A DNA stretch of 64,000 bases from Chelatococcus sp. HY11 (GTDB lineage Bacteria; Pseudomonadota; Alphaproteobacteria; Rhizobiales; Beijerinckiaceae): assembly GCF_018398335.1 (NCBI RefSeq), contig NZ_JAHBRX010000002.1, forward strand, positions 1,550,001 to 1,614,000. Reading direction: 5' to 3'. The notes beneath the pieces are model-generated. The model was not told the DNA's origin. It did no database searches and worked only from the letters and a program-made list of their open reading frames with translations. Both the position numbers and the translations under genes were made by a program. Below are positions 11,908-52,875 of this stretch, in pieces (within the stretch, counting starts at the first letter, position 1; every line of letters begins with the position of its first letter).

Positions 11908-13626
11908 ATGTCTCTTGTATCGGCCTCCACCGGCAGCGCTGCCGCGTCGTCAACGCGCTTGTTCAATGCCTTGGCCGTCGTCCTTCTCGTCGCGATGCTG
12001 GCACTTGTCATCGTGCCGATCGGCGTCATGCTGGCGAGCAGCTTCATGGCCGGGGACGGCGCTGCTGTCTCGCGCATGGCGGATGCCATCGCGAGCCCTG
12101 CGATTCTGAAGGTTCTGCTCGATACTTTCATCGTGGTGATCGCGAGTACGACGCTCGCGCTGTGCATCGGCGCCACGTTCGCATGGATCAATGAGCGAAC
12201 GGACGCGAACCTCGGTTTCGCGGCAGATATCCTGCCTCTGGTTCCGTTGCTCGTGCCACAGATAGCGGGAGTGACCGGCTGGGTCACGTTGCTTTCACCA
12301 CAGGCGGGATTTCTCAACGCCGCATTACGAAACGTCCTCGCGGCTTTTGGCTTCGAGTTTGACACGGGGCCAATCAATATTTTCAGTTACGCCGGCCTCA
12401 TCTGTGTGATGACGCTTTATCTCGTGCCCTATGGCTATCTCATCATCTCAAGCGCCCTCCAGCAGCTCAATCCAAGTCTGGAAGAGGCGGCTCGTATCAG
12501 TGGTGCTTCGCCGTTCAAGACGCTGCGGCGTGTCACATTGCCAGCGATCAAGCCGGCGATCATGAACGCCGCTATTATCGTGTTCATCTTCGGCATATCG
12601 CTCTTCTCGGTGCCGATTGTCATCGGGACCGGCGCCGGGATAGACCTTTTATCGGTCCGCATCTATCGGCTGCTGTACAACTATCCGCCCCGCATGGAGC
12701 AGGCTATCGCCCTGAGCTTCATCATGATGGTCGTCGTGCAGGCAGCCGTGGCGGCGCAGGTGCTGGCGATACGCAGCCGGACCCACGCCGAGATCGCGGG
12801 CAAGGGCCAGGCCGCGTCGCGCGTTGAACTGGGGCGCTGGCGCGGCGTTGCGATGACTTCGGTAATTATTTACCTGTTGCTCACAGCTGTGTTGCCATTG
12901 ATCGCGCTGGTTATTGTGTCACTGCAGCCATTCTGGGTTCCCACGATATCGATAGATAACCTGAATCTGCAAAACTTCGTGTTTGTTCTGTTTGAAAATA
13001 ATTTGAGCATACGCGCCCTGGTGAACAGCATTGGGCTTGGCATCGTGGCGGCCACTCTCGGTATGCTTCTTTCAGCGATATTCGTAACATACGCTCGTAG
13101 CGTCGGTACACGCGCCCAGGCAATGATCGAAGCGCTGACGGCACTCCCGGCGACCATCCCGCAGACAGTGACCGGTGTCGCGATCGTGGTGACGTTTTCC
13201 GGTGGGATCATAAATCTTCATGGTACGCTCGCGATATTGCTTCTCGCTTACCTCCTGATTTCCCTGCCGCAATCGATGCGGTCGGCACGCGCGGCGGTGT
13301 CTCAGGTCGGTCAAGACCTCGTTGAAGCAGCCAAGATGGCGCACGCGTCGCAGTTTCGCATATTCCGTCGCATCATGTTTCCGCTAATGCGTCCCGGGCT
13401 TGTCGCGGGATGGGTTATTCTTTTCATCTATACCAGCGGAGAGCTCACCGCATCCGCTCTTCTTGCCGGAACGGGCAATCCGGTTGTCGGCATAGTCCTC
13501 CTGGATCTTTGGGAGAATGGCTCGTTTCCTCAGCTCGCGGCGATCGCCGTCATCATGACAATTCTGGATATGGTGGTGGTTGGCGGCATTCTTCGGTTTT
13601 CCAAGTTGCGAAGTGCGATATCCTGA
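11908..13626 (+). CDS. ABC transporter permease, fused two-domain (FbpB/ThiP type)
   Basis: The 572-residue integral membrane protein has two binding-protein-dependent permease halves in one chain. Each half has an EAA loop contacting the ATPase: LEEAARISGASPFKTLRRVTLPAIKPA (about residues 190-220) and LVEAAKMAHASQFRIFRRIMFPLMRPG (about 470-500). Such fused permeases need only one gene for the transmembrane dimer. It ends the operon that begins at 8246. Confidence 0.88.
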   Translation: MSLVSASTGSAAASSTRLFNALAVVLLVAMLALVIVPIGVMLASSFMAGDGAAVSRMADAIASPAILKVLLDTFIVVIASTTLALCIGATFAWINERTDANLGFAADILPLVPLLVPQIAGVTGWVTLLSPQAGFLNAALRNVLAAFGFEFDTGPINIFSYAGLICVMTLYLVPYGYLIISSALQQLNPSLEEAARISGASPFKTLRRVTLPAIKPAIMNAAIIVFIFGISLFSVPIVIGTGAGIDLLSVRIYRLLYNYPPRMEQAIALSFIMMVVVQAAVAAQVLAIRSRTHAEIAGKGQAASRVELGRWRGVAMTSVIIYLLLTAVLPLIALVIVSLQPFWVPTISIDNLNLQNFVFVLFENNLSIRALVNSIGLGIVAATLGMLLSAIFVTYARSVGTRAQAMIEALTALPATIPQTVTGVAIVVTFSGGIINLHGTLAILLLAYLLISLPQSMRSARAAVSQVGQDLVEAAKMAHASQFRIFRRIMFPLMRPGLVAGWVILFIYTSGELTASALLAGTGNPVVGIVLLDLWENGSFPQLAAIAVIMTILDMVVVGGILRFSKLRSAIS

Positions 13627-14015: not shown

Positions 14016-15719
14016 TTAACGCCTCAGTCCACCCCTGCAGTAGCGCAGCATGACCAAAACAATAATCGTGAATGTCATCGTCACCACGATCGACATGGCC
14101 GCCACCTGCGGGAAGGAGCCATTCTCCCAGAGATCGAGGAGAACAAGTCCCACGACAGGGTTATTGCTGGCGGAAAGCAGTGCTGACGCTGTCAGCTCTC
14201 CGGCGCAATGGACGAACAGGATAACCCAGCCGGCGACGAGGCCCGGCATCATCAATGGCAACTGCACCCGTCGGAAAACTGTCAATGGCGAGGCGCGTGA
14301 AATGGCAGCCGCTTCGACTAGCTCCCTTCCGACCTGGGCAGAAGCTGCCGATGCTGAGCGCACCGCCTGCGGCAGATACATCACCAGATAGACGATTAGC
14401 AGGATCGCAAGCGTGCCGTGAAGATTGAGCCAACCCTGTCCAAAGGCAAAGAGGAAGCCAACCCCCATGACACTATGGGGAACCGCTGCCGGAAGCACGG
14501 TCATGCCATCGATTGGTCCCTGTAACCACGTGGGGCTGTTGCGCACGGTCAGCGCGATCAACGCCGCGATCAGCATTCCGATCGTTGCGCCGGCCATGCC
14601 GAGCATGAGGCTGTTCTGGAGCGCGTCGGATGTCATCTGTCGCTCAAACAGAATATGGGTGTAGTTCGACAGGCTGAGGCGCCCCCAAACGATGCGCGCG
14701 GTCCACAGAGGCTGGAGCGATACGATGAGCAAGCCGACGACAGGCACGAAGGAGGTTGCGAGGAGATAACCGATCATCGCCGAGCGCACGGGAAGCCGCC
14801 ACCGTCCGAGGCGAATCCGTGAGGCCGCTGAGCCTTTGCCGCCGATCGTCGCGAAGCGACCTGACGAGGAGATCCAGCGCTGTAAGATCAACGCGGTCTG
14901 TGCTGTGATCATCATGAACAGGCTCATGATGATCGCGAGATCGACCTTTGGCGGATAAGCATAGAGAAGCTGGTAGATCCTGACCGAGAGGACGTCGATG
15001 CCCGCGCCTGTGCCAAGCACGATCGGTACGGAGAAATTGGCAACGCCTTGAATGATCAGGACAAGGGCCGATGCGGCGAGTGCGGGCCTGATCGACGGCA
15101 ATGTGACTTTCCAGAACGTGCGTAGCGGAGACGCGCCGGTTATCCGTGCCGCTTCCTCCAGCGCCGGATCCAGGTTGCGCAGCGCCGCCGATATGATGAG
15201 ATATGAGAATGGGAGCAAGTACAGGAACATCACGAAGACGAAACCCGTGTATGTGAATATATTGACAGGGCCTCGACGAATGTTGATACCCACCAGCGAG
15301 AAGAGGTCTCTCAGAAGTGCATTGAGCAACCCGGCTTGAGGGGATAACAGCGTTACCCAGCCAATGACGCAGGCGATGGTGGGAATAAGCAGCGGAATGA
15401 GCGGAAGTAGCTCGGATATCCACCCTGCGTCCGCGTCAGTACGTTCGTTCAGCCAGGCGAAGAGAGCGCCGACCAACAACGCGAACACGCCGCTCACACC
15501 TACTACGGATATGGTATTCAGGATAACTTCGGCAACGGCGGGGTCGGTGATGAGTTGGACAATGCCCTCGACGTCCAGACCGGACTCGCCGAAGAACGCG
15601 CGCTTGATGATGATGATAAGCGGATAAACGACGAAGAACGTGCTGAGAGCAACCACCGCCAGCGTTAAAATACCAAACCAATTCAAAGAATGACGATGAG
15701 CGCTGTACGTCAGTCGCAT
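14016..15719 (-). CDS. ABC transporter permease, fused two-domain (paralogue)
   Basis: The protein has about 567 residues from the ATG at 15719, with an upstream in-frame ATG at 15785 as alternative. It has the same two-permease fusion as the gene at 11908, with EAA loops LEEAARITGASPLRTFWKVTLPSIRPA and LVEAAAISRASPLTVFRRVQLPLMMPG. It lies 86 bases after the binding-protein gene at 15806. No ATPase gene follows; the next gene is convergent. Its ATPase is probably the one at 10675 (inference). Confidence 0.87.
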   Translation of the reverse strand: MRLTYSAHRHSLNWFGILTLAVVALSTFFVVYPLIIIIKRAFFGESGLDVEGIVQLITDPAVAEVILNTISVVGVSGVFALLVGALFAWLNERTDADAGWISELLPLIPLLIPTIACVIGWVTLLSPQAGLLNALLRDLFSLVGINIRRGPVNIFTYTGFVFVMFLYLLPFSYLIISAALRNLDPALEEAARITGASPLRTFWKVTLPSIRPALAASALVLIIQGVANFSVPIVLGTGAGIDVLSVRIYQLLYAYPPKVDLAIIMSLFMMITAQTALILQRWISSSGRFATIGGKGSAASRIRLGRWRLPVRSAMIGYLLATSFVPVVGLLIVSLQPLWTARIVWGRLSLSNYTHILFERQMTSDALQNSLMLGMAGATIGMLIAALIALTVRNSPTWLQGPIDGMTVLPAAVPHSVMGVGFLFAFGQGWLNLHGTLAILLIVYLVMYLPQAVRSASAASAQVGRELVEAAAISRASPLTVFRRVQLPLMMPGLVAGWVILFVHCAGELTASALLSASNNPVVGLVLLDLWENGSFPQVAAMSIVVTMTFTIIVLVMLRYCRGGLRR

Positions 15720-15805
15720 AGTTTTTCCGCCTTTGGCCACGCGCTGAAAACGAGAGATGCCCCGGTGCGGATAGCTCATCCACACCGGGAAGTAATCCGC
15801 GCTTC

Positions 15806-17109: not shown

Positions 17110-17991
17110 TCATATCGAACGGAGAAGCGTTTCGCGTGCGGATCGCATATGTGTTCGCACTGCCTTGTCCAGACCTTCGCCATCATCTGCTTTCAACGCG
17201 CTGATGATTGCAAGATGTTCATGGAGAGCGACCTCGTTGCGCTCCCGCTCGTCGTGCTTGGCCCATTGCAGATGATAATGGAAAATCAATGATATCACTT
17301 CGTAGAATTCCGTGATGAAACGGTTGTTCGAGGCATCGTTGATGGCACGATGAAAGGTCTCGTCCAGGCCGGAGAACTGGTGAAAATCGGTCTCTATTCT
17401 CCGCAATAGATCACGATGCTCCTTCTCCAGCTCTTCCAGCTTGCGGCGGCCGTGTTCGTCGCGCAGAGCCCGCGTGAAATGGTGGATGGATCGCATCTCG
17501 AACATTTCTCGAATGTCGCAAAGCTCCAGCGCGAAATCTCGCGTGAAGCCTTGAAACACCCAGCTCGCGTTCGGACGACGCTCGATCAGTCCATAGCGAC
17601 TGAACCGGTTCAGGTATTCGCGGATCCCGGATGTCGAGACATTGAAAAGCCGGGAGAGTTCAAGGCTGCTGATCGCGTCTCCAGGCCGAAGATCGCCCGC
17701 GAGCAGCCATTCCTTCACGCGGCGCTCGATGAGTTCAGAGCTCGTCTCCGTCTCCGCCTCGGGGAAATACGCGGCGCCGCGAGGATGCCGCAAGACCCGC
17801 TTTTCGCGCCCGTGCACACTGAGGATGCCCGCGGCGTTCAGCGCGGCGAGTATCGCTCTGACTGTGGTGCGGCTTACGCCCAGTCGTTTCGCGAGCGTCG
17901 GCTCGGACCCCAGGAGCGCGCCGACAGAAACCTCTCTCACGGTGTCGAGGCAGGCATTGTAGGCCCGCTTGTAAACGGAATTGTCTTTCAC
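17110..17991 (-). CDS. GntR/FCD-type regulator with two winged-helix domains
   Basis: At 293 residues it is about 60 longer than ordinary FadR-like regulators. The extra part is a complete N-terminal winged helix (about residues 5-65: LLGSEPTLAKRLGVSRTTVRAILAALNAAGIL). A second winged helix follows (about 85-145: VKEWLLAGDLRPGDAISSLELSRLFNVSTSGIREYLNRFSRYGLIERR), then the all-helical FCD ligand domain (about 150-290) with metal- and ligand-site residues in RDE and HEHLAIISAL. The start is GTG. It is divergent from the alcohol dehydrogenase at 18209, with a large composite inverted repeat between them that is the likely operator. It is also upstream of, and on the same strand as, the 16819 ABC pair. 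Confidence 0.85.
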   Translation of the reverse strand: MKDNSVYKRAYNACLDTVREVSVGALLGSEPTLAKRLGVSRTTVRAILAALNAAGILSVHGREKRVLRHPRGAAYFPEAETETSSELIERRVKEWLLAGDLRPGDAISSLELSRLFNVSTSGIREYLNRFSRYGLIERRPNASWVFQGFTRDFALELCDIREMFEMRSIHHFTRALRDEHGRRKLEELEKEHRDLLRRIETDFHQFSGLDETFHRAINDASNNRFITEFYEVISLIFHYHLQWAKHDERERNEVALHEHLAIISALKADDGEGLDKAVRTHMRSARETLLRSI

Positions 17992-18022
17992 GGCTGCGTC
18001 TCTGTCTGCCTCGCGAACTGTT

Positions 18023-18108
18023 CATATCTGAAAAATTATCGGTAAAAAACATTTTGACATCGGCTCGCTAGCGGCTCAAGTGTGTTTTACCGATAAGAGA
18101 CAGATATG
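18023..18108. promoter_or_regulatory. Composite inverted-repeat operator between GntR and dehydrogenase genes
   Basis: The left arm is CATATCTG (18023-18030), five bases, then TTATCGGTAAAA (18036-18047). The right arm is TTTTACCGATAA (18085-18096), four bases, then CAGATATG (18101-18108). Both blocks are exact inverse copies. The 37 bases between the arms hold TTGACA at 18053-18058 on the plus strand and a possible opposing TTGAGC on the minus strand, so both divergent promoters may sit in the loop. The two-block arms suit a regulator with two DNA-binding domains. Confidence 0.7.
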
Positions 18109-18208
18109 GCGGCACGCCGCAGCCACCTGTCCCTGAGATGCCCGCATGCCGCCGTCCGTCGCGTCGCAGGCGTGCCAGATGTAGCCACTGACCGTGCAGG
18201 ACCTTGCG

Positions 18209-19219
18209 ATGAAATCAATTGTATGTCGCGCGCCCCATGATATCGCCCAGGAGGAGAGATCAGCTCCGGGGGACCTCGCGGAAGGTTGGGTCCTCCTTGA
18301 CGTCAGTTACGTCGGCATTTGCGGCACGGACTACCACATCTATGAAGGGAAGCACCCTTTTCTGGAGTACCCGCGAGTGATTGGCCACGAGATTTCGGGC
18401 GTGGTTTCCAGGGCTCATCCATCTTCCGGTTTCGTCGCCGGGGAAACTGTGGTGGTTAATCCCTATTTGTCCTGCGGGGTTTGCGGCGCCTGTCGTAAGG
18501 GGAAGCCCAACTGTTGCGAGCGCATCGAGGTTCTTGGCGTGCATCGCGATGGCGGCATGTGCGAGCAGATCGCGGTTCCTTCCATCAATCTCTACCATGC
18601 TGGCAGCCTTTCTCCGCGCGATGCGGCCATGGTCGAGTTCCTGGCGATAGGTGCCCATGCGGTGCGTCGAGCCGGAGAGACGAAGGGGGCGGCACTCGTC
18701 GTCGGCGCGGGACCGATCGGCCTCGGCGTCGCGATCTTCGCGCGCATCGCCGGGTTGGACGTGACGGTCGCCGATGTCGACGTGGGGCGGCTCGCGCAGG
18801 CGCAAGCGGTTCTCGGGGAGGTGCGTTCGGTTGTCGTCGGCGACGCCGATGCCCTGGCGCGCGTGAAAGCTCTCGAGGCGGGCGGTTTCGATGTCGTTTT
18901 CGATGCGACCGGAAATGCCACGTCGATCATGGCCGGCTTTGCCTTCGTCGCTCATGGCGGAACCTACGTTCTTGTCAGTGTCGTTAAGGACGACATCACC
19001 TTTTCAGACCCGGAATTCCATAAGCGCGAGATGGCGTTGATCGGCAGTCGGAATGCCACCGCAGTTGATTTCGAGCATGTCATTGCGTCGATCGGCAGGG
19101 GAGCCGTGCCTTTGGACGCCCTCGCGACGCATGAGACGACGCTCGACACAGCGGCGACGGATCTGCCGCGATGGGCCCGCGAGAGGGAAGGACTGATCAA
19201 GGCCCTGGTCAGGATCTGA
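18209..19219 (+). CDS. Zinc-dependent medium-chain alcohol/polyol dehydrogenase
   Basis: The protein has 336 residues from the ATG at 18209, with AGGA upstream; a GTG at 18194 is an alternative. Catalytic zinc ligands are in GICGTD and GHE, the structural-zinc cysteines in CGVCGACRKGKPNCCE, and the NAD(P)-binding Rossmann motif in VVGAGPIGLGVA. The overall pattern is close to sugar-acid and polyol dehydrogenases (L-gulonate or L-galactonate 5-dehydrogenase, sorbitol and threonine dehydrogenase types). The substrate is not known. It is divergent from the two-domain GntR regulator across the composite operator. Confidence 0.85.
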   Translation: MKSIVCRAPHDIAQEERSAPGDLAEGWVLLDVSYVGICGTDYHIYEGKHPFLEYPRVIGHEISGVVSRAHPSSGFVAGETVVVNPYLSCGVCGACRKGKPNCCERIEVLGVHRDGGMCEQIAVPSINLYHAGSLSPRDAAMVEFLAIGAHAVRRAGETKGAALVVGAGPIGLGVAIFARIAGLDVTVADVDVGRLAQAQAVLGEVRSVVVGDADALARVKALEAGGFDVVFDATGNATSIMAGFAFVAHGGTYVLVSVVKDDITFSDPEFHKREMALIGSRNATAVDFEHVIASIGRGAVPLDALATHETTLDTAATDLPRWAREREGLIKALVRI

Positions 19220-19261: not shown

Positions 19262-21169
19262 TTAGGGCCGCGTTGGTGCGGGAATGGTCGCCGGGCGTGC
19301 GAGGCGTGCCTGCGCGGTCAAGCGAATGCCGGCGTTAGCGGCGCCGTATCCGCCATATCCGTCGCGTTGTACGACCTCGAAGAACAAGCCGCCATCGAGG
19401 GTTGTCGTGTAGGCCTGATAGAATGCTCCCGCGTCATCGCGATCATAAAGAATGTTGAGCGCCTTCAGCCAGCTGAGCTCGTCCGCTGTGAGCTCGAATC
19501 GTGCTTCAAGGTCGTCATAGTAGTTTTCGGGAATTGGCAGCATGGCGACACCGTTGGCGATAAGAGCCGCAACCGTTGCCTGAATGTCCGCCGTTGCGAA
19601 AGCAATGTGCTGCACACCAGAGCCGAAGAAGTCCGTGATGAAGCGCGCCGACAATGTCCTGTGACTTTGCGATCCATTGAGGATGAGACGCAAGCCGCGT
19701 CCCACGCTGCCGTTCAAGCCGCTTTCGATCACCTGGCTCTGGACCACGCCGCCGGGATCAATCACGGCTTGGCTCGGCGCTTTCGTCGTGTCGAAGAGCG
19801 AAGAATAGAACAACACCCACGTCAGCATTTCCTCATAGTGCATACTCTGCGAGATGTGATCGACGGCAATCAACCCGACCTCCGCTCCGGTCTCGCCAGT
19901 CGGCGCGAAGTCCACATCCGCCCAGCGCCCTAATGCGGACGCGTTGTCGAGGAAATAGAGCAGACTTCCGCCAAGGCCGCGCACAGCTGGAATGTCAAGC
20001 TCGCCAGGCCCCGCCGCGCCGGCGTGCGGCGTATCGAGCAGGGCCGTCGCCCGCTGAATGGTCGCTTGCGCGTCCGCTACTCTGAGAGCGATGGCGCATA
20101 CCGACGTACCGTGGGTGATCTGGTAGCTATGGGCAAAACCCTCGACGTCGCTGTTGAGCACGATGCGGATATCACCCTGCCGCCACAGGCCGACGTCCTT
20201 GGAACGGTGGGCACCGGCGTGAACGAATCCAAGCGCCGTGAGCAGTCCTTCAAAAGTCGGTCGCAGTGCCTCGGCGACTGCGAATTCAATGAATTCAACC
20301 GCCTCCACGGATAAGGGAGGTGGCATCGGCACCGCGCCAGGAACAGCGTGGTCCAGCTTTCGCGATGTATCATCCAGCAGCCATATGAGGGAGCGATGCC
20401 CATCCAACGCCACTGATCGTGCTGATCCTGCGCGGAACCGGTCATTAAAAATCTCCAGCGAGAGAATGCCATCGTAGCCCGTTGTGGCGAGCGCATTCAT
20501 GAATCCGGCAAGGTCAAGGTCGCCCTGACCCGGCAGGCAGCGCCAGTGCCTGCTCCACGACAGATGGTCCATCTGCAGCCTTGGCGCGTCCGCCATCTGC
20601 ACCATCGCGATCTTGTCCGGCGGTATGGTTGTCATGGCCGTGAGGTCAAGACCGCGTGACAGAATGTGGAAGCTGTCCAGAACGACGCCGATATTGTCGC
20701 GGTTGGCGCGGCGGACGATCTCCCAGGCGTCCCGGTAGTCCCAGACGTGCCGCCCCCATGCCAAGGCTTCAAAGCCGATCCGCAAATTGCGCCGGGACGC
20801 CCGCTCCCCGAGTTCGGCGAAATCCTGCGCGAGCCGGTCTATCCCGCCAAGGGATTCGGGAGAGACGCTGGAGCAGACGAAGAGAAGATCTGTGCCGAGT
20901 TCCTGAAGGAGATCGAACTTGCGTTCCGCGCGATCGAAGGTGCGGGTGCGCCGTGCGTCCGGCATACCCTCAAAATCGCGAAATGGCTGACAGGTCGCGA
21001 TGGCGAGGCCGAGGTCCGCGCATATCCGACGCACCTCCGTCGGCGAGCCGGGAAAGGCGATGAGATCATTCTCGAATATTTCCACAGCGCGAAAACCCGC
21101 CGCCGCAATAGCCTCAAGTTTCTCCTGAAGCGTTCCGGATACACAGACCGTTGCTATAGAGGGTATCAT
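19262..21169 (-). CDS. quiC: 3-dehydroshikimate dehydratase, QuiC type (isomerase/HPPD-like fusion)
   Basis: The protein has 635 residues in two domains. Residues 1 to about 275 are a xylose-isomerase-like TIM barrel (LGIATCQPFRDFEGMPD, then SLEIFNDRF), which carries dehydratase activity in QuiC proteins. Residues about 300-600 are a 4-hydroxyphenylpyruvate-dioxygenase-like vicinal oxygen chelate domain with putative metal ligands in VDHISQSM, VQHIAFATAD and FFEVVQRDGYGGYG. The reaction converts 3-dehydroshikimate to protocatechuate, the substrate of the pca genes at 37-41 kb. It is the last gene of the row starting at 26594 and overlaps the aroE-like gene by four bases. Confidence 0.88.
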   Translation of the reverse strand: MIPSIATVCVSGTLQEKLEAIAAAGFRAVEIFENDLIAFPGSPTEVRRICADLGLAIATCQPFRDFEGMPDARRTRTFDRAERKFDLLQELGTDLLFVCSSVSPESLGGIDRLAQDFAELGERASRRNLRIGFEALAWGRHVWDYRDAWEIVRRANRDNIGVVLDSFHILSRGLDLTAMTTIPPDKIAMVQMADAPRLQMDHLSWSRHWRCLPGQGDLDLAGFMNALATTGYDGILSLEIFNDRFRAGSARSVALDGHRSLIWLLDDTSRKLDHAVPGAVPMPPPLSVEAVEFIEFAVAEALRPTFEGLLTALGFVHAGAHRSKDVGLWRQGDIRIVLNSDVEGFAHSYQITHGTSVCAIALRVADAQATIQRATALLDTPHAGAAGPGELDIPAVRGLGGSLLYFLDNASALGRWADVDFAPTGETGAEVGLIAVDHISQSMHYEEMLTWVLFYSSLFDTTKAPSQAVIDPGGVVQSQVIESGLNGSVGRGLRLILNGSQSHRTLSARFITDFFGSGVQHIAFATADIQATVAALIANGVAMLPIPENYYDDLEARFELTADELSWLKALNILYDRDDAGAFYQAYTTTLDGGLFFEVVQRDGYGGYGAANAGIRLTAQARLARPATIPAPTRP

Positions 21170-22032
21170 GATGAAGCCTCCTCCCGTGCAAGGTGGGCAA
21201 CCGCACGTAGGTCATCTGATGTTGTTGTTGGGAAGCCAAAAAATTCGAGATAGGCGGGGATCTGCTCGAAGAGCATGTCGATTCCGACCTGATAAGCGCA
21301 GCCGCGCGCGCGAACGGCCTCAAGAAATGGCGTGATGTCCTGCTTCATGACAACCTCGCCGACGAAGGCTGATGGCGCGATACGCGCGACGTCGACAGGC
21401 AGAGGGTCGCCGGCCCTCATCCCGAGCGGCGTCGCATTGATGATAATGTCAAAGCCCTCCGGATCATTGCCGCCGATCGACACCACCAGCGCGGGATAGT
21501 GGCGGCGCAGCCGCTCGCCCAAGGCTATAGCCGTCGGCAACTGCGTGTCGGACAGCGCGACCTCGCTCACTCCCGCTTTCGCGAGCGAAGCGGCGATCGC
21601 CGAACCGACACCACCTGCGCCAATGATCAGCGCCCGCGCGCCGACGATCGCGCGTCCCTTTTTCAACACCCCTCGGACGAAGCCTTCCCCGTCGAACATC
21701 TCTGCGACGAGACGTCCGTCGCTCTCGACCCTCACGGCATTGCAGGCCCCGGCTATGGCTGCTGTGGTCATAACCTCGTCGACAAGACCGATCGCCGTGA
21801 CCTTGTGTGGCATGGTGATCAGTGCACCGTGGGCATTGGAGAGCCGGGCGAACACCTTGAGGAACGTGGGAAAATCTGGCGCTTTCACGCCCATCGGCAC
21901 CACGACCGCATCGATGCCCCGCCGCGTGAAGTAGGGATTGTAGATCATCGGCGCCCTGAAGCTTTCGGTTGGGTGACCGAGATGCGCGATGAGCTTGGTC
22001 GTGCCACTGATCATGGCGGGCTTTCTTTCCAT
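21166..22032 (-). CDS. Shikimate/quinate dehydrogenase-like protein (AroE family)
   Basis: The protein has 288 residues (start ATG 22032; ATG 22014 is also possible). AroE family features are the catalytic Lys in ITMPHK, CNAVRV followed by DGEGFVRGV in place of NTDGxGF, and the nucleotide loop IIGAGGVGSAIA. The usual Ser-x-Ser carboxylate-binding motif near the N-terminus (as in HSKSP) is replaced by SFRAP. It is likely a catabolic enzyme oxidising shikimate or quinate, not the biosynthetic one, because it is embedded in a quinate/shikimate operon with quiC and aroQ. The coenzyme is unknown. Confidence 0.82.
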   Translation of the reverse strand: MERKPAMISGTTKLIAHLGHPTESFRAPMIYNPYFTRRGIDAVVVPMGVKAPDFPTFLKVFARLSNAHGALITMPHKVTAIGLVDEVMTTAAIAGACNAVRVESDGRLVAEMFDGEGFVRGVLKKGRAIVGARALIIGAGGVGSAIAASLAKAGVSEVALSDTQLPTAIALGERLRRHYPALVVSIGGNDPEGFDIIINATPLGMRAGDPLPVDVARIAPSAFVGEVVMKQDITPFLEAVRARGCAYQVGIDMLFEQIPAYLEFFGFPTTTSDDLRAVAHLAREEASS

Positions 22033-23067
22033 TCAAGCGATTTTGATCGCCATACCGGTGCGGGCTGCATGTTTGACAGCCTCTATGACTTTGAGCGTGT
22101 TCAGGCCCTCACGCCCTGAAACGATTGGCGCGGCACGTCCACGGATGACGTCGCAGAAATGGCGGATCTGCAGCTTGAGTGGATCGTCAGGCAGGAAAGG
22201 AATACGCTCGCGCCGCAAGGGCTCCCGCCAACTGCGCTCGCCGGGGTTGGACCAGAGTTCCAGTTGCGGGATGGTCAAAGCCCCGTGCGACCCGCCGATC
22301 TGGTAACAGCTTTCCCCTTGACGGGGGTAGGCGGGATTCTCGCCGGTTGTCAGCTCCCAGCTCCAGGGAGCGACGACGGCATCGGAAGCGCTGATCGTCG
22401 CCAGTATTCCGTTCTCGAAGAGCAGAATGACCACGGCAGTTTCCTCGACCGAATGGCCGCGAAACGCGTTCGATTCCTGCGCTTGGACGATTGCGATCTC
22501 GCCGCATAAGTAACGAAACAGGTCGATGTCATGGATCAGATTGATAAAGACAGGACCCCCGCCCGGCGCGCGTCGCCAGGCCGTGTCGAAATAGTCATCG
22601 GGCTTCATCAGCCAGAATTGGCCAGCGAGCGTCAGCACCTGGCCGAGCTGCCCGGAATCGATGATGTCCTTTGCCTTGCGGATCATCGGATTGAAACGCC
22701 GGTGATGCCCCACGAGCAACGGAACTCCCGCATCTTCCGCGGCTTCGACGAGCCTGGTGGCGGCGGCAACATCATCCGCTATGGGTTTTTCGACAAGCGC
22801 TGGAATCGCAGCGGCCACCGCCTCCAGCCCGTTGACGACGTGAAGCTGGTTCGGGGTTGCGATGATGACGCCGTCGGGCCGGTCCGTCTTCAGGCATGAC
22901 TCGAGGTTTTTATACCAAGCGGTGCCCAGGGAGTTTGCTAGTGCCTCGCCCGCCGGGGCGGGATCGATGATCGCCGATAGAATAGCTCCCGGATCAGCGG
23001 CGATATACTGCGCGTGGCGGCTGCCGATCAAGCCAGCGCCCATGATTGCAAGTTTGACTGGCTCCAT
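22033..23067 (-). CDS. Gfo/Idh/MocA family NAD(P)-dependent dehydrogenase
   Basis: The protein has 344 residues from the ATG at 23067, which follows GAGGAG; a longer frame to 23148 would overlap the end of aroQ. The dinucleotide loop is IMGAGLIGSRHAQYI, the catalytic EKP motif is LVEKPIAD, and substrate-side residues are in GHHRRFNP and LIHDIDLFRYL. The family oxidises sugars, inositols and cyclic polyols. In this operon it probably oxidises quinate, shikimate or a related cyclitol, in parallel with the AroE-like protein encoded next (inference). Confidence 0.83.
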   Translation of the reverse strand: MEPVKLAIMGAGLIGSRHAQYIAADPGAILSAIIDPAPAGEALANSLGTAWYKNLESCLKTDRPDGVIIATPNQLHVVNGLEAVAAAIPALVEKPIADDVAAATRLVEAAEDAGVPLLVGHHRRFNPMIRKAKDIIDSGQLGQVLTLAGQFWLMKPDDYFDTAWRRAPGGGPVFINLIHDIDLFRYLCGEIAIVQAQESNAFRGHSVEETAVVILLFENGILATISASDAVVAPWSWELTTGENPAYPRQGESCYQIGGSHGALTIPQLELWSNPGERSWREPLRRERIPFLPDDPLKLQIRHFCDVIRGRAAPIVSGREGLNTLKVIEAVKHAARTGMAIKIA

Positions 23068-23095
23068 GATGCGCTCCTCACACCGCAGCTGAGCG

Positions 23096-23545
23096 TCAAT
23101 CCGGCGTCGTCTCGGCGATGCGCGCGATGCGTCGCAGGGCGAGTTCATAGCCCTGCGTGCCGAAGCCGGCGATCACACCATCGGCGCGCAACGATACGAA
23201 GGAATGATGACGGAAAGACTCGCGCTTATGAACGTTCGAGATATGACACTCAATAACCGTTCCATCAAAAGCATTCAGGGCATCAAGGATCGCGACCGAG
23301 GTATGTGTGAACGCTCCCGGATTAATAACAATGCCGGTTGCCTCCTCGCGGGCTTCATGGATCCGTTCGATGATTTCATATTCACGATTGGACTGGTGGA
23401 AGCTAAGCCGGAGGTTCAATTGCTCGCTCAATGTCCGGCACGCGACCTCCACATCGGCCAGCGTCTCATGACCATAGATGTGAGGTTGCCGTTTTCCGAG
23501 AAGATTAAGATTAGGGCCGTTAATCACATAGACGAGACGGCTCAT
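23096..23545 (-). CDS. aroQ: Type II 3-dehydroquinate dehydratase
   Basis: This is the standard small type II enzyme of 149 residues: [20 protein letters not shown] with the active-site Arg and Tyr, [35 protein letters not shown] with the catalytic His, and [11 protein letters not shown]. It converts 3-dehydroquinate to 3-dehydroshikimate, feeding QuiC two genes downstream. GGGAG precedes the ATG. A second copy lies at 27536-27979, so at least one of the two is catabolic. Confidence 0.92.
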
Positions 23546-28540: not shown

Positions 28541-29233
28541 ATGGCTGAAATGGTATCGGACATGTCGGGCGAGGATGGCGCGGTCGCTTCGGCCGGCGAG
28601 CAGGCCTATGCCCGTATTCGCGCTGATATCGTCTTTGGACGCCTGAAACCCGCGCAGCGCTTGACGCTTGAAAAATTGCGACCCGCCTATGGTGTCGGGA
28701 TCAGCACTTTACGGGAGATTTTGAGCCGGCTGACCCCGGAGGGGCTGGTCGTCGCGGAGGGGCAGCGGGGCTTTCAGGTCGCTCCATGTTCAGCGGAGGA
28801 TCTCAAGGAGATTGCAGCATTGCGGCTTCTTATCGAGAAGCATGCACTGGCGCGGTCGTTTCAAGCGGGGGACATGGAATGGGAGGGCAGGGTGGTTGCC
28901 GCTCATCACAAGCTCGCTCGCATGGAGGCCGCTCTTCTGGCCGGTGACGCATCCGGGACCGAGCAATGGAAGCGCTACGATTGGGAGTTCCACCAGGCGC
29001 TGGTGTCGGCTTGCGGTTCAAGGGCGCTTCTCGACATTCACTCCTGCATATACGATCGATATCTGCGCTATCAGATGGTTTTCGTGATCTTTCGCGGCGC
29101 CATCGCGACAGAGGAACACAAGGCGCTGCTCACCTGCGCGCTCAGTCGTAACATCGAGGAGGCGCAGCGCGTGTTCGAAAGGCATGTGCAAGGCTGCCTG
29201 GATTTCGCTTTTCAGAACAGATTGATCACCTGA
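28541..29233 (+). CDS. GntR family regulator, FCD type
   Basis: The 230-residue protein has an N-terminal winged helix (IRADIVFGRLKPAQRLTLEKLRPAYGVGISTLREILSRLTPEGLVVAE, about residues 28-80) and an FCD-type helical effector domain. It precedes the Liv-type importer genes on the same strand and probably controls them in response to a carboxylic-acid ligand; the link is by position only. Confidence 0.85.
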   Translation: MAEMVSDMSGEDGAVASAGEQAYARIRADIVFGRLKPAQRLTLEKLRPAYGVGISTLREILSRLTPEGLVVAEGQRGFQVAPCSAEDLKEIAALRLLIEKHALARSFQAGDMEWEGRVVAAHHKLARMEAALLAGDASGTEQWKRYDWEFHQALVSACGSRALLDIHSCIYDRYLRYQMVFVIFRGAIATEEHKALLTCALSRNIEEAQRVFERHVQGCLDFAFQNRLIT

Positions 29234-50380: not shown

Positions 50381-51991
50381 TCACGACGCCTCTCCGAGGA
50401 TGAAATCGCTCGCGCGCTCGGCGATCATCATCGTCGGCGCATGTGTGTTGGAAGAAGGCATGCGCGGCATGATGGAGGCGTCGACCACGCGCAGGCCAGG
50501 AATGCCATGCACCTTGAGATGCTGGTCAACAACGGCCAGATCGTCCGTGCCCATCCGGCAACTGCCGACCGGGTGAAACACGGTGTCGGCGACGCCCCGC
50601 AACCAGTGCTCGATGTCAGCGTCCGTGACGACATCGGGACCTGGAGCGAGTTCTGGCCCCCGGAAGCGATCAAAAGCCGGCTGAGCGAAGACGCGACGGA
50701 GGGCCTTCACGCCCTCACGCAAGACATGAAGATCCGCCGGGTCGGAGAGGTAGTTGGGCCTGATGCGCGGCGCGGCGAGCGGATCGGCGCTGCCGATCGT
50801 GATTTCGCCACGGCTATGGGGGCGCAACTGATAGACATTGGCGAAAAAGCCGTGGCCGTCGTAGCGACCGCTGGCCTTTGCCAGGAACGGCAATCTAAGG
50901 GCTGCGGTCGAAAGACCGGGGAGGAAATGCGATTGCAGGTCCGGCTCGTCGAGGGCGGGGTCCGACTTGAAGAACGCGCCGCCTTCAAGCGGGAAGGAGG
51001 CCGCAGGCCCGCTTTTGAGAAAGATCGCCCTAAGGAGGGCAAGCGCCGCGCGATCGCCGCGCAACGTGCTATACAGCGTGACCGGCTCCAGGCATGCATG
51101 CTCCACCCTGGCCAGAAGATGGTCCTGGAGGTTCTTGCCCACGCCTTTGAGATCCCGCACGACGGGAATTCCGTGGCGGCGAAGCAGATCCGCATCGCCG
51201 ATACCGGAATGCATCAGGGCGGCAGGAGAATTCACCGTTCCGCAGGATAGAATGATATCCCGCTCAGCGCGGATCGATTGCCGCTCACGCCCCGTCAGGA
51301 TCTCGACCCCGGTCGCGCGCCCGTTTTCTACGATAACCTTCAGAAGGCGCGCATCCGTCCGGATGACGAGATTGGGACGTTGACGCGCGGGGCCAAGAAA
51401 GGCGCGCGCCGCGCTCCAACGCTCTCCATTCTTCGTGGTGAAATCGTAACGGCCGAAGCCTTCCTGCGTTTCGCCGTTGAAATCCAGATTGAACGGATAG
51501 CCGGCTTGCTGTCCGGCCGCCACAAAGGCGTCAAACAGAGGGTTGGGGGTATTCGGCCGGGAGATGGGCAGCGGCCCGGCTCCGCCATGGAAGGCATTGG
51601 CGCCAGGCTGGTAACTCTCGCCGCGCATGAAAGCGGGCAAGACCTTGTCGAACGACCATTCCGGCAAGCCCATCTGGGCCCAGCCGTCATAGTCCAGCCG
51701 CGTGCCGCGGGTGTAGACCATTCCGTTGATGGCTGATGAACCGCCGAGGACCCGCCCGCGCGGCCAGAACAGTTGTCGGTCGTTGAGATGGGGTTCCGGC
51801 TCCGTGCGGTAGAACCAGTTGGCGTAGCGGCTGCGGAGCAAAACGCCGGTCATCAGCGGAACGCGGAAAAGCGGATTCCAGTCGGATCCGCCAGCTTCCA
51901 GGAGAAGCACACGATGGTGGGGATCGGCGGACAGGCGATTGGCGAGGACGCAGCCGGCCGAGCCGGCGCCGACAATGATGAAGTCGAATCC
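50381..51991 (-). CDS. GMC family oxidoreductase (choline/alcohol dehydrogenase-like)
   Basis: The flavoprotein has 536 residues from the GTG at 51991, which directly opens the FAD motif FDFIIVGAGSAGCVLANRLS; a longer frame to 52111 would add an unnatural tail. GMC signatures are GRVLGGSSAINGMVYTRG and ILSCGTVNSPAALMHSGIG, with the C-terminal catalytic region FHPVGSCRMG and PSSNTHAPTMMIAERASD. It oxidises an alcohol, aldehyde or polyol with FAD. It is divergent from the SDR/ABC operon at 52129. Confidence 0.87.
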   Translation of the reverse strand, partial: GFDFIIVGAGSAGCVLANRLSADPHHRVLLLEAGGSDWNPLFRVPLMTGVLLRSRYANWFYRTEPEPHLNDRQLFWPRGRVLGGSSAINGMVYTRGTRLDYDGWAQMGLPEWSFDKVLPAFMRGESYQPGANAFHGGAGPLPISRPNTPNPLFDAFVAAGQQAGYPFNLDFNGETQEGFGRYDFTTKNGERWSAARAFLGPARQRPNLVIRTDARLLKVIVENGRATGVEILTGRERQSIRAERDIILSCGTVNSPAALMHSGIGDADLLRRHGIPVVRDLKGVGKNLQDHLLARVEHACLEPVTLYSTLRGDRAALALLRAIFLKSGPAASFPLEGGAFFKSDPALDEPDLQSHFLPGLSTAALRLPFLAKASGRYDGHGFFANVYQLRPHSRGEITIGSADPLAAPRIRPNYLSDPADLHVLREGVKALRRVFAQPAFDRFRGPELAPGPDVVTDADIEHWLRGVADTVFHPVGSCRMGTDDLAVVDQHLKVHGIPGLRVVDASIMPRMPSSNTHAPTMMIAERASDFILGEAS

Positions 51992-52005
51992 CACGGAAGC
52001 CCCAT

Positions 52006-52073
52006 TTGACAAATTACTTGTACTTTGTTTATAACAAGAATAACAGAGGTTGACGGGAATAACAACTTGTAAT
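52006..52073. promoter_or_regulatory. Divergent promoter region with ACTTGT operators
   Basis: TTGACA (52006-52011) and TATAAC (52030-52035), spacer 18, form a good plus-strand promoter for the gene at 52129. The spacer holds ATTACTTGTA (52013-52022), and AACTTGTAAT lies at 52064-52073. On the minus strand TTGTTA and TATTCT, 17 bases apart, could serve the GMC gene. The same motif at 49581 suggests a shared regulator, probably the HutC-type GntR. Confidence 0.55.
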
Positions 52074-52128
52074 GGCCGCGGGGATGTGAGGGCGAAACGG
52101 CCTGCGTTCATCGCGGGGGAGAGCGTTG

Positions 52129-52875
52129 ATGCAGCATTCAGCGGGGCGGCCGCTTTCAGGGCAGGTCGCGCTTGTCACAGGCGGTGCGCGTGGTATCGGG
52201 GCTGCGGTCTGTCAGGCTCTCGCGCAGGACGGGGCGACTGTTTATGCCGCGGACTTGTTGTCCTGTGAGCAAACCGTGGCTGCGATTGCCGAGGCGGGCG
52301 GCCTGGCGCATGCGCGCAAGCTTGATGTTTCCGATCGGAATGCCTGTGTCGCCCTTGCTAACGAGATCGTGGCGGCCAAGCAACGTCTCGATATCCTTGT
52401 CTGCAACGCGGGGATCTGTCCGCCCGGCACGGTGGCTGGCGACTGGGAGCAGTGGGACCGCGTCATCGATGTGAACGTAAACGGTACCCAGGCCTGTATC
52501 GCCGCCTGCTGGCCGCATATGATTGCGTGCGGCTATGGACGGATCGTGCTGGTGAGTTCGATGGCCTATTATCAGGGCGGTGTCATTGTCGGCACGGAGT
52601 ATTCCGCGTCGAAGGGCGCGGTCGCGGCTATGACTCGTCATGTTGCCCGTAACGGCGGTCCGCATGGAATACTCTGCAATGCCGTGGCGCCTGGCGTGAT
52701 CGCGACAGACATGACGGCCAGTTTCTCCAAGCCTGATCCGCAAGCTATCCCTCTACGGCGCGTTGGAACGGCCGAGGACGTTGCGGGGCCTGTCCGCTTT
52801 CTCTGCGGGCCCTATTCAGCCTACATGACCGGTACAATTTTGAATGTCACGGGCGGCATCGTGCTCGCGGCGTGA
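52129..52875 (+). CDS. Short-chain dehydrogenase/reductase
   Basis: The protein has 248 residues from the ATG at 52129, with GGGGGAGAG upstream. Motifs are VTGGARGIGAAVC, VCNAGICPPG, catalytic Ser in VLVSSMAYYQGG, Tyr/Lys in YSASKGAVAAM and the C-terminal YMTGTILNVTGGI. It is the first gene of the plus-strand operon running through the haem-degrading-domain protein and ABC importer to 56824. Together with the SDR at 48835 and the GMC enzyme it gives three redox steps on an unknown substrate. Confidence 0.88.
   Translation: MQHSAGRPLSGQVALVTGGARGIGAAVCQALAQDGATVYAADLLSCEQTVAAIAEAGGLAHARKLDVSDRNACVALANEIVAAKQRLDILVCNAGICPPGTVAGDWEQWDRVIDVNVNGTQACIAACWPHMIACGYGRIVLVSSMAYYQGGVIVGTEYSASKGAVAAMTRHVARNGGPHGILCNAVAPGVIATDMTASFSKPDPQAIPLRRVGTAEDVAGPVRFLCGPYSAYMTGTILNVTGGIVLAA

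Follow-up and report, generated by a model that had tools for sequence, protein, structure and literature searches.

Within the 64,000-nt stretch of DNA analysed here (hereafter the window, 64 kb), a regulator with two GntR winged helices in front of its FCD domain faces a zinc-dependent dehydrogenase across an intergenic region that contains two copies of a 22-bp palindrome conserved upstream of its relatives. The explanation that we favor, and consider somewhat better than an even bet, is that this protein is an LgoR-type regulator of the divergent sugar-acid dehydrogenase, that one dimer would bind each 22-bp palindrome, and that the second winged helix (wH2) would read the inner and the first (wH1) the outer word of each half-site.

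The two-headed regulator and its divergent dehydrogenase

The gene pair and the domains of the regulator are located as follows:
17110..17991 (–), LgoR-type regulator of 293 aa, with two GntR winged helices (1 and 2) followed by the FCD domain
17794..17979 (–), wH1, residues 5-66, from conservation, predicted structure and fold matches
17554..17742 (–), wH2, residues 84-146, from conservation and predicted structure
17143..17526 (–), FCD effector/dimerisation domain, residues 156-283, from Pfam
18194..19219 (+), zinc-dependent dehydrogenase, divergent from the regulator

The regulator, which is translated from a GTG start codon, belongs to the GntR superfamily and its FCD (FadR/VanR) subfamily, as defined by an N-terminal GntR winged helix and a C-terminal FCD domain. 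The Pfam family GntR (PF00392) matches it in two stretches with 66.9 bits (cut-off 27), and the FCD domain gives a single, C-terminal match. An AlphaFold2 model (mean pLDDT 88.6, pTM 0.66) was built from an alignment of 83 of 93 relatives, with group X (see below) among the ten omitted. It places helices at residues 5-20, 30-37 and 41-53 and strands at 57-60 and 63-66 in wH1, helices at 84-97, 109-116 and 120-131 and strands at 136-138 and 144-146 in wH2, and the FCD helices thereafter. Pfam and the model therefore bear out the initial annotation of this DNA, which had described two complete winged helices ahead of the FCD domain. By fold, wH1 matches the winged helices of BusR, PhnF, DasR and AraR; a comparison with the PDB by sequence and by fold yielded no chain aligned across both heads among the matches listed.

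Residue conservation was tabulated for 93 of the 95 proteins of the family described below, omitting two shorter than 250 residues. In wH1, S40 is present in all 93 and R41 together with R45 in 91, both exceptions being group X. In the recognition helix of wH2, the canonical SR is replaced by ST while R124 is retained; the family mostly carries T at this place, where canonical GntR heads have the R of SR, and conserves R124 to 87% and E125 to 95%. A second FCD-domain regulator is encoded in the window at 28541-29233 (+), and the genome contains 70 FCD matches altogether.

By sequence comparison, the closest named relative that we found is E. coli LgoR (YjjM), which is encoded beside the divergent LgoD (YjjN). 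LgoR shares the layout of two GntR heads plus FCD and is 34% identical to the window protein over 286 aa (the copy compared comes from an E. coli plasmid record); LgoD is 40% identical to the window dehydrogenase, with the same divergent order of regulator and dehydrogenase. Based on the two heads plus FCD, the full-length similarity and the divergent LgoD-like gene, we classify the window protein as LgoR-type. Thus, the two-headed architecture is not new to genomes. Relatives of the regulator were found in 69 of the 397 genomes sampled from its order. The initial annotation knew of no described FCD regulator working in the way that it proposed. This needs to be qualified, as the domains of E. 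coli LgoR are arranged in the same way. No account of the operator or recognition mode of LgoR was found in the open-licence literature, among the matches listed. Likewise, among the matches listed there, no title or abstract fitted two-headed FCD regulators. LgoD is described as an L-galactonate-5-dehydrogenase (PMC5507952, citing Kuivanen and Richard 2014), and a 2018 survey lists LgoR, carried by E. coli K-12, as a hypothetical factor (PMC6055005). A hexonate similar to L-galactonate or L-gulonate is the probable ligand of the window regulator.

The dehydrogenase probably starts at ATG 18209. It scores below every NCBIfam cut-off among the 25 families listed, the top one being PRK10083 with 175.7 bits (cut-off 376). 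A divergent LgoD-like gene is located at most 1.6 kb upstream in 20 of the 95 family members, window included, although one of these 20 matches covers 67 residues and the identity of two others is 33-35%. No LgoT-like MFS transporter is present among the eight window proteins scanned around the regulator/dehydrogenase pair. Beside the LgoD-like gene, a row of genes on the minus strand (19262-23148) encodes a QuiC-like 3-dehydroshikimate dehydratase, a shikimate dehydrogenase-like protein and Gfo/Idh/MocA proteins, likely a quinate/shikimate catabolic cluster. On the other side of the regulator, two long PhnU2-like ABC permeases of 572 aa (11908-13626, +) and 589 aa (14016-15785, –), each with two permease stretches, are convergent and nearly adjacent.

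A conserved 22-bp palindrome upstream of the regulator genes

Relatives of the regulator were gathered at a threshold of 1e-30 from four overlapping samples of 199, 4, 397 and 385 genomes, of which 12, 3, 69 and 6 had a match (counts that include the genome of the window), and a further 8 loci were taken from named genome contigs. After removal of 4 exact duplicates and 9 near-duplicates from 108 upstream regions, 95 non-redundant regions remained, window included. These regions, searched for motifs de novo with random starting points, yielded caaa.TGTTTTTTATcgATAAaaa, and with symmetry imposed the model is the 22-bp palindrome TGTtTTTTATcgATAAAAaACA with 19.3 bits, 10.3 in its inner and 9.0 in its outer part. 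The fit allowed one site per sequence; multi-occurrence fitting was discarded, as it drifted to a plain AT-rich pattern. The palindrome exceeds 8 bits in 86 of the 95 upstream regions (91%), compared to 6.9% of Markov-simulated controls and one of 95 gene-body controls taken from 330 bp inside the same genes. At eight loci that surround further FCD genes in this genome, the best scores anywhere in 3.4 kb range from 1.4 to 11.5.

With a threshold of at least 11 bits within 330 bp upstream, 48 of the 95 regions harbor one site, 31 two or more and 16 none. Because single sites are common and both sites of the window share one consensus, we take the palindrome as the binding unit. Its GT and AC (TGT-N16-ACA) lie 16 nt apart and hence do not show the spacing of 2-3 nt that is given as typical of most FadR-subfamily operators, with BioR and NanR not conforming (PMC4494728).

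The intergenic region contains the following elements:
18030..18051 (unstranded), candidate operator site B, nearer to the regulator; the 22-mer is GAAAAATTATCGGTAAAAAACA, with its inner 10 bp at 18036-18045
18081..18102 (unstranded), candidate operator site A, nearer to the dehydrogenase; the 22-mer is TGTGTTTTACCGATAAGAGACA, with its inner 10 bp at 18087-18096
18032..18060 (–), proposed regulator promoter, ATGTCA (18055-18060)-N17-AATTTT (18032-18037), by analogy with L022
18054..18081 (+), proposed dehydrogenase promoter, TTGACA (18054-18059)-N16-TCAAGT (18076-18081), from conservation
18023..18030 (+), regulator-side copy of the CATATCTG block, without conservation in the close relatives compared
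18101..18108 (–), dehydrogenase-side copy of the CATATCTG block, 7/8 retained in L010 and L012

When its own clade is left out of the model, site A scores 17.9 bits and site B 11.4 bits, ranking second and fourth in the 64 kb; on one side of site B, the outer word is a poor match (GAAAAA). The top place in the window under the same model is 52019-52040 (TGTACTTTGTTTATAACAAGAA, 18.0 bits). It lies close to where a long ORF (50381-52111) and, divergent from it, another ORF (at 52129) begin, and is possibly a site of another regulator.

Two repeated words had been noticed in this region before, and the initial annotation proposed that two inverted arms of two blocks each, at near-constant spacing, are gripped by one dimer over about 86 bases. 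The arms themselves are real: CATATCTGAAAAATTATCGGTAAAA at 18023-18047 (+) and CATATCTGTCTCTTATCGGTAAAA at 18085-18108 (–) are both exact, with the layout CATATCTG-N4/5-TTATCGGTAAAA, spacers of 5 and 4 nt and a total span of 86 bp. This gapped pattern is found at two places in the 64 kb, none of 100 shuffles contains it, and TTATCGGTAAAA with at most one mismatch is found solely in the two arms (0.04 expected in the window). The probability of an exact 8/8 repeat outside the two equal 12-mers is roughly 2.6e-4; CATATCTG alone, present three times compared to 1.27 expected in the window, is weak evidence. The repeated CATATCTG block is thus unusual in the window sequence, yet it is not conserved. 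In a survey of 214 arms from sites of at least 12 bits in the 95 upstream regions, CATATCTG with at least 7/8 matches in two arms of one locus is restricted to the species of the window. Single arms carry it with 7/8 in L010, L012 and L051 and with 8/8 in L078. Two loci stem from the same genus: L010 has CACATCTG on the dehydrogenase side and no such block on the regulator side (<7/8), and L011 has no recognisable block by either site, judged by eye. Nor is the block enriched, since 16 of the 214 arms reach at least 6/8 compared to 8.5 ± 7.3 for permuted blocks, and 25 of 200 permutations also reach 16.

By contrast, TTATCGGTAAAA makes up one side of a 22-mer that is longer and largely self-complementary, and it is this 22-mer that is conserved; the TG of the dehydrogenase-side CATATCTG block is the outer TG of site A. 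We therefore regard a dimer spanning 86 bp and reading CATATCTG and TTATCGGTAAAA as very improbable, despite the exact match of both words in both arms at nearly equal spacing. The proposal had also implied a bipartite repeat in orthologs with the double domain, and the 48 relatives with one 22-bp site do not show it. Of the suggestion that each winged helix reads one block, the general part, two heads for two different words, is supported, but the choice of words is not.

Among 25 pairs of sites 30-70 bp apart, 17 have their centers 42-45 bp and 6 have them 50-52 bp from each other; those of sites A and B are 51 bp apart. These distances cluster near whole helical turns (mean phase 0.13 turn, R 0.48, relatedness uncorrected). 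The phasing would suit a dimer or tetramer that bridges A and B, for example with the wH1 pair and the wH2 pair on different sites or by looping as described for Atu1419, a tetramer that loops 190 bp (PMC7797058). We think this rather unlikely: sites A and B follow the same consensus, half of the relatives have a single site, and cooperative binding of two dimers would account for the spacing equally well. The near-constant spacing is reminiscent of the cooperative double-site divergons known for FadR-subfamily regulators (PMC4494728).

We infer the regulator promoter by analogy to L022, which has TTGTCA-N17-TAAAAT upstream of the gene; the corresponding ATGTCA-N17-AATTTT would place the core of site B over the spacer and the –10 region. 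Such a position within the regulator's own promoter suggests autorepression, and Atu1419 has a similarly placed site in its own promoter (PMC7797058). On the other side, TTTGACA and CTCAAG are found at equal spacing in L010, L011 and L028 and not fully in L012; TTGACA-N16-TCAAGT may hence be the dehydrogenase promoter, with site A at its start region. A consensus scan for promoters and terminators returned nothing at its threshold and recovered neither proposed promoter. E. coli LgoR may be an activator, and the effect on the dehydrogenase promoter could thus be of either sign.

In a genome-wide search, the window site is found at one mismatch and three other places at three mismatches, so that within two mismatches it is the only match in its genome. 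Further genomic targets are not claimed, because two of the three-mismatch places resemble the palindrome of another family and the third (L118) is without clear gene context. The core TTATCGATAA also occurs within ATGTTATCGATAACAT palindromes elsewhere in the genome, which presumably resemble LacI-family sites, and one might ask if the 22-mer is instead the site of a different factor, for example of a LacI-type protein. We give this very little weight, because the outer word of the ATGTTATCGATAACAT palindromes differs, the 22-mer accompanies 86 of 95 relatives of the regulator from many families, and the window site stands alone in its genome at this stringency. Two near-perfect palindromes about 11 kb apart, GGTATGTTATCGATAACATATC and TATATGTTATCGATAACATAAC (L119 and L120, at 964162 and 975043 of G000 C2), have the TTATCGATAA core in common but differ in the outer word; they are probably sites of another regulator.

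Proposed assignment of the two heads to the two words

According to the model that we favor, the palindrome is the operator unit, present here as sites A and B, and each copy would be occupied by one regulator dimer. In each half-site, the FCD-attached wH2 would read the inner TTATC and the extra N-terminal wH1 the outer TGT (TGT/ACA across the palindrome), which would place four heads on about 22 bp.

A first indication comes from FCD regulators with a single head. The operator of BioR, the biotin regulator of Alphaproteobacteria, is given as TTATMKATAA, about 10 bp (PMC4494728), and the inner ten bases of the window sites, TTATCGATAA, fit this consensus. BioR itself has one winged helix, an approximately 10-bp site and biotin genes as targets, in contrast to the two winged helices and 22-bp palindrome described here. 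An identification of the window protein as BioR was rejected: it has two winged helices, and the family model of the C-terminal BioB domain has no match in this genome. Atu1419, a VanR-type FCD regulator of Agrobacterium, also differs by having one winged helix, and its operator ATGTATACAT consists of 10-bp palindromes (PMC7797058). A single-headed FCD gene linked to bioB (L171), which we infer to be BioR from its location, lies close to TTATAGATAA and TTATCTATAA, neither of which is set in the TGT-N16-ACA frame. Compared to these sites of about 10 bp, the extra length of the 22-bp palindrome would fit the extra head. Four heads on one operator are also described for BusR, a tetramer with a GntR-type wHTH and an RCK_C domain, one head per subunit and a coiled-coil ruler that sets a bipartite motif separated by 22 bp (PMC8517857). 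There, the four heads come from four subunits, whereas a dimer would provide them in our model.

Two groups of relatives, chosen after the alignment had been seen, are informative with regard to the individual heads. Group X consists of two sister proteins of one lineage (L114 and L115, 71% identical), and a wider search brought up no more close members among 397 genomes. In their wH1, SGSTxA replaces SRTTVR, so that both arginines are lost. Upstream of both genes, TTATCGATAA is exact and the outer word matches in 2/8 and 1/8 positions, compared to a mean of 5.6/8 in 59 ordinary members and 2.0/8 at 65 gene-body places, all at sites chosen solely by the inner word.

Group Y, reduced from 33 to 23 non-redundant upstream regions, has an altered wH2 recognition helix, typically LQEFL for VREFL, and the upstream motif TTGTTTTTAATaATTaAAtTCAA. 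Whereas 59 of 81 ordinary members have the inner core within two mismatches, it is present in 6 of the 23 regions. The outer word is retained with at least 7/8 matches in 19 of the 23 regions at a spacing one base shorter than the ordinary one, as opposed to 4 to 9 regions at six other spacings and a Markov null of 1.6. As a limitation, 14 of the 23 regions come from one family of genomes, and of the remaining 9 only 5 have the outer frame. The loci of this group (among L092-L112 and L135-L155) show the odd-centered palindrome TTG-N17-CAA, which several of them carry twice, at a distance of about 50 bp. Group Y also alters T43 of wH1, mostly to I or V, and the dissociation of heads and words is therefore not clean.

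Ordinary members set a limit to this argument. With the outer word alone (at least 7/8), 33 of 81 match at the proper spacing, 32 at three, 29 at two and 13 at one base shorter, and 13, 22 and 12 at one, two and three bases longer (null expectation 2.4 to 3.8). By this count, the 22-bp frame does not stand out, in contrast to group Y, where one spacing does. Since the outer word alone is not distinctive in ordinary members, support for the 22-bp frame comes there from the inner-anchored count and the motif model. We regard the separate variation of inner and outer words in groups Y and X as support, not proof, for reading by two heads.

The most serious competitor, to which we assign perhaps a one-in-four chance in spite of that variation, is that one winged helix reads bases and the other has a structural or dimer-dimer role, the palindrome being covered by one head pair plus flanks or by two dimers. 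It would explain why wH2 lacks the first arginine of the canonical SRxxVR while wH1 retains it, and why the outer word by itself fails to fix the frame in ordinary members. In addition, some palindromes of single-headed GntR regulators are described as having weaker extra boxes 7-12 nt from the center (PMC4494728). The recognition helix of wH2, however, keeps R124 and E125 conserved. Moreover, the FCD head encoded next to bioB likewise carries SH in place of the canonical SR, and yet is found near TTATNNATAA sites.

Implications for the family

GntR regulators are usually described as carrying one head per subunit that acts on a short GT-AC palindrome (PMC4494728). Beyond the window itself, the observations might be explained by a modular two-word reader, a joint proposal that we hold tentatively, at slightly under even chances. 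A GntR head from another subfamily would have been joined to the N-terminal end of a complete BioR/VanR-type FCD regulator; these heads of different origin, four per dimer, would act on one 22-bp palindrome; the operator would be the sum of two half-codes; and each word would evolve together with its own head.

The palindrome model does not seem to extend to E. coli. In front of lgoR in five enterobacterial loci, the scores of the palindrome are 5.1, 15.7, 8.4, 8.7 and 7.2 bits and, unlike in the family of the window, it is not clearly present. These scores speak against an extension of the model, and LgoR of E. coli probably recognizes another sequence. The same upstream regions (L159-L163) share a different element around TGTTTTAAATCGG(G/C)TTTTAATG, clearest in L159, L160 and L163, which is a candidate for the LgoR operator.

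If each head indeed reads its own word in every half-site, these regulators would be a simple natural case of DNA-binding specificity growing by domain addition. Groups X and Y would then provide ready-made natural variants for testing, and the same reasoning would suggest an approach to LgoR of E. coli.
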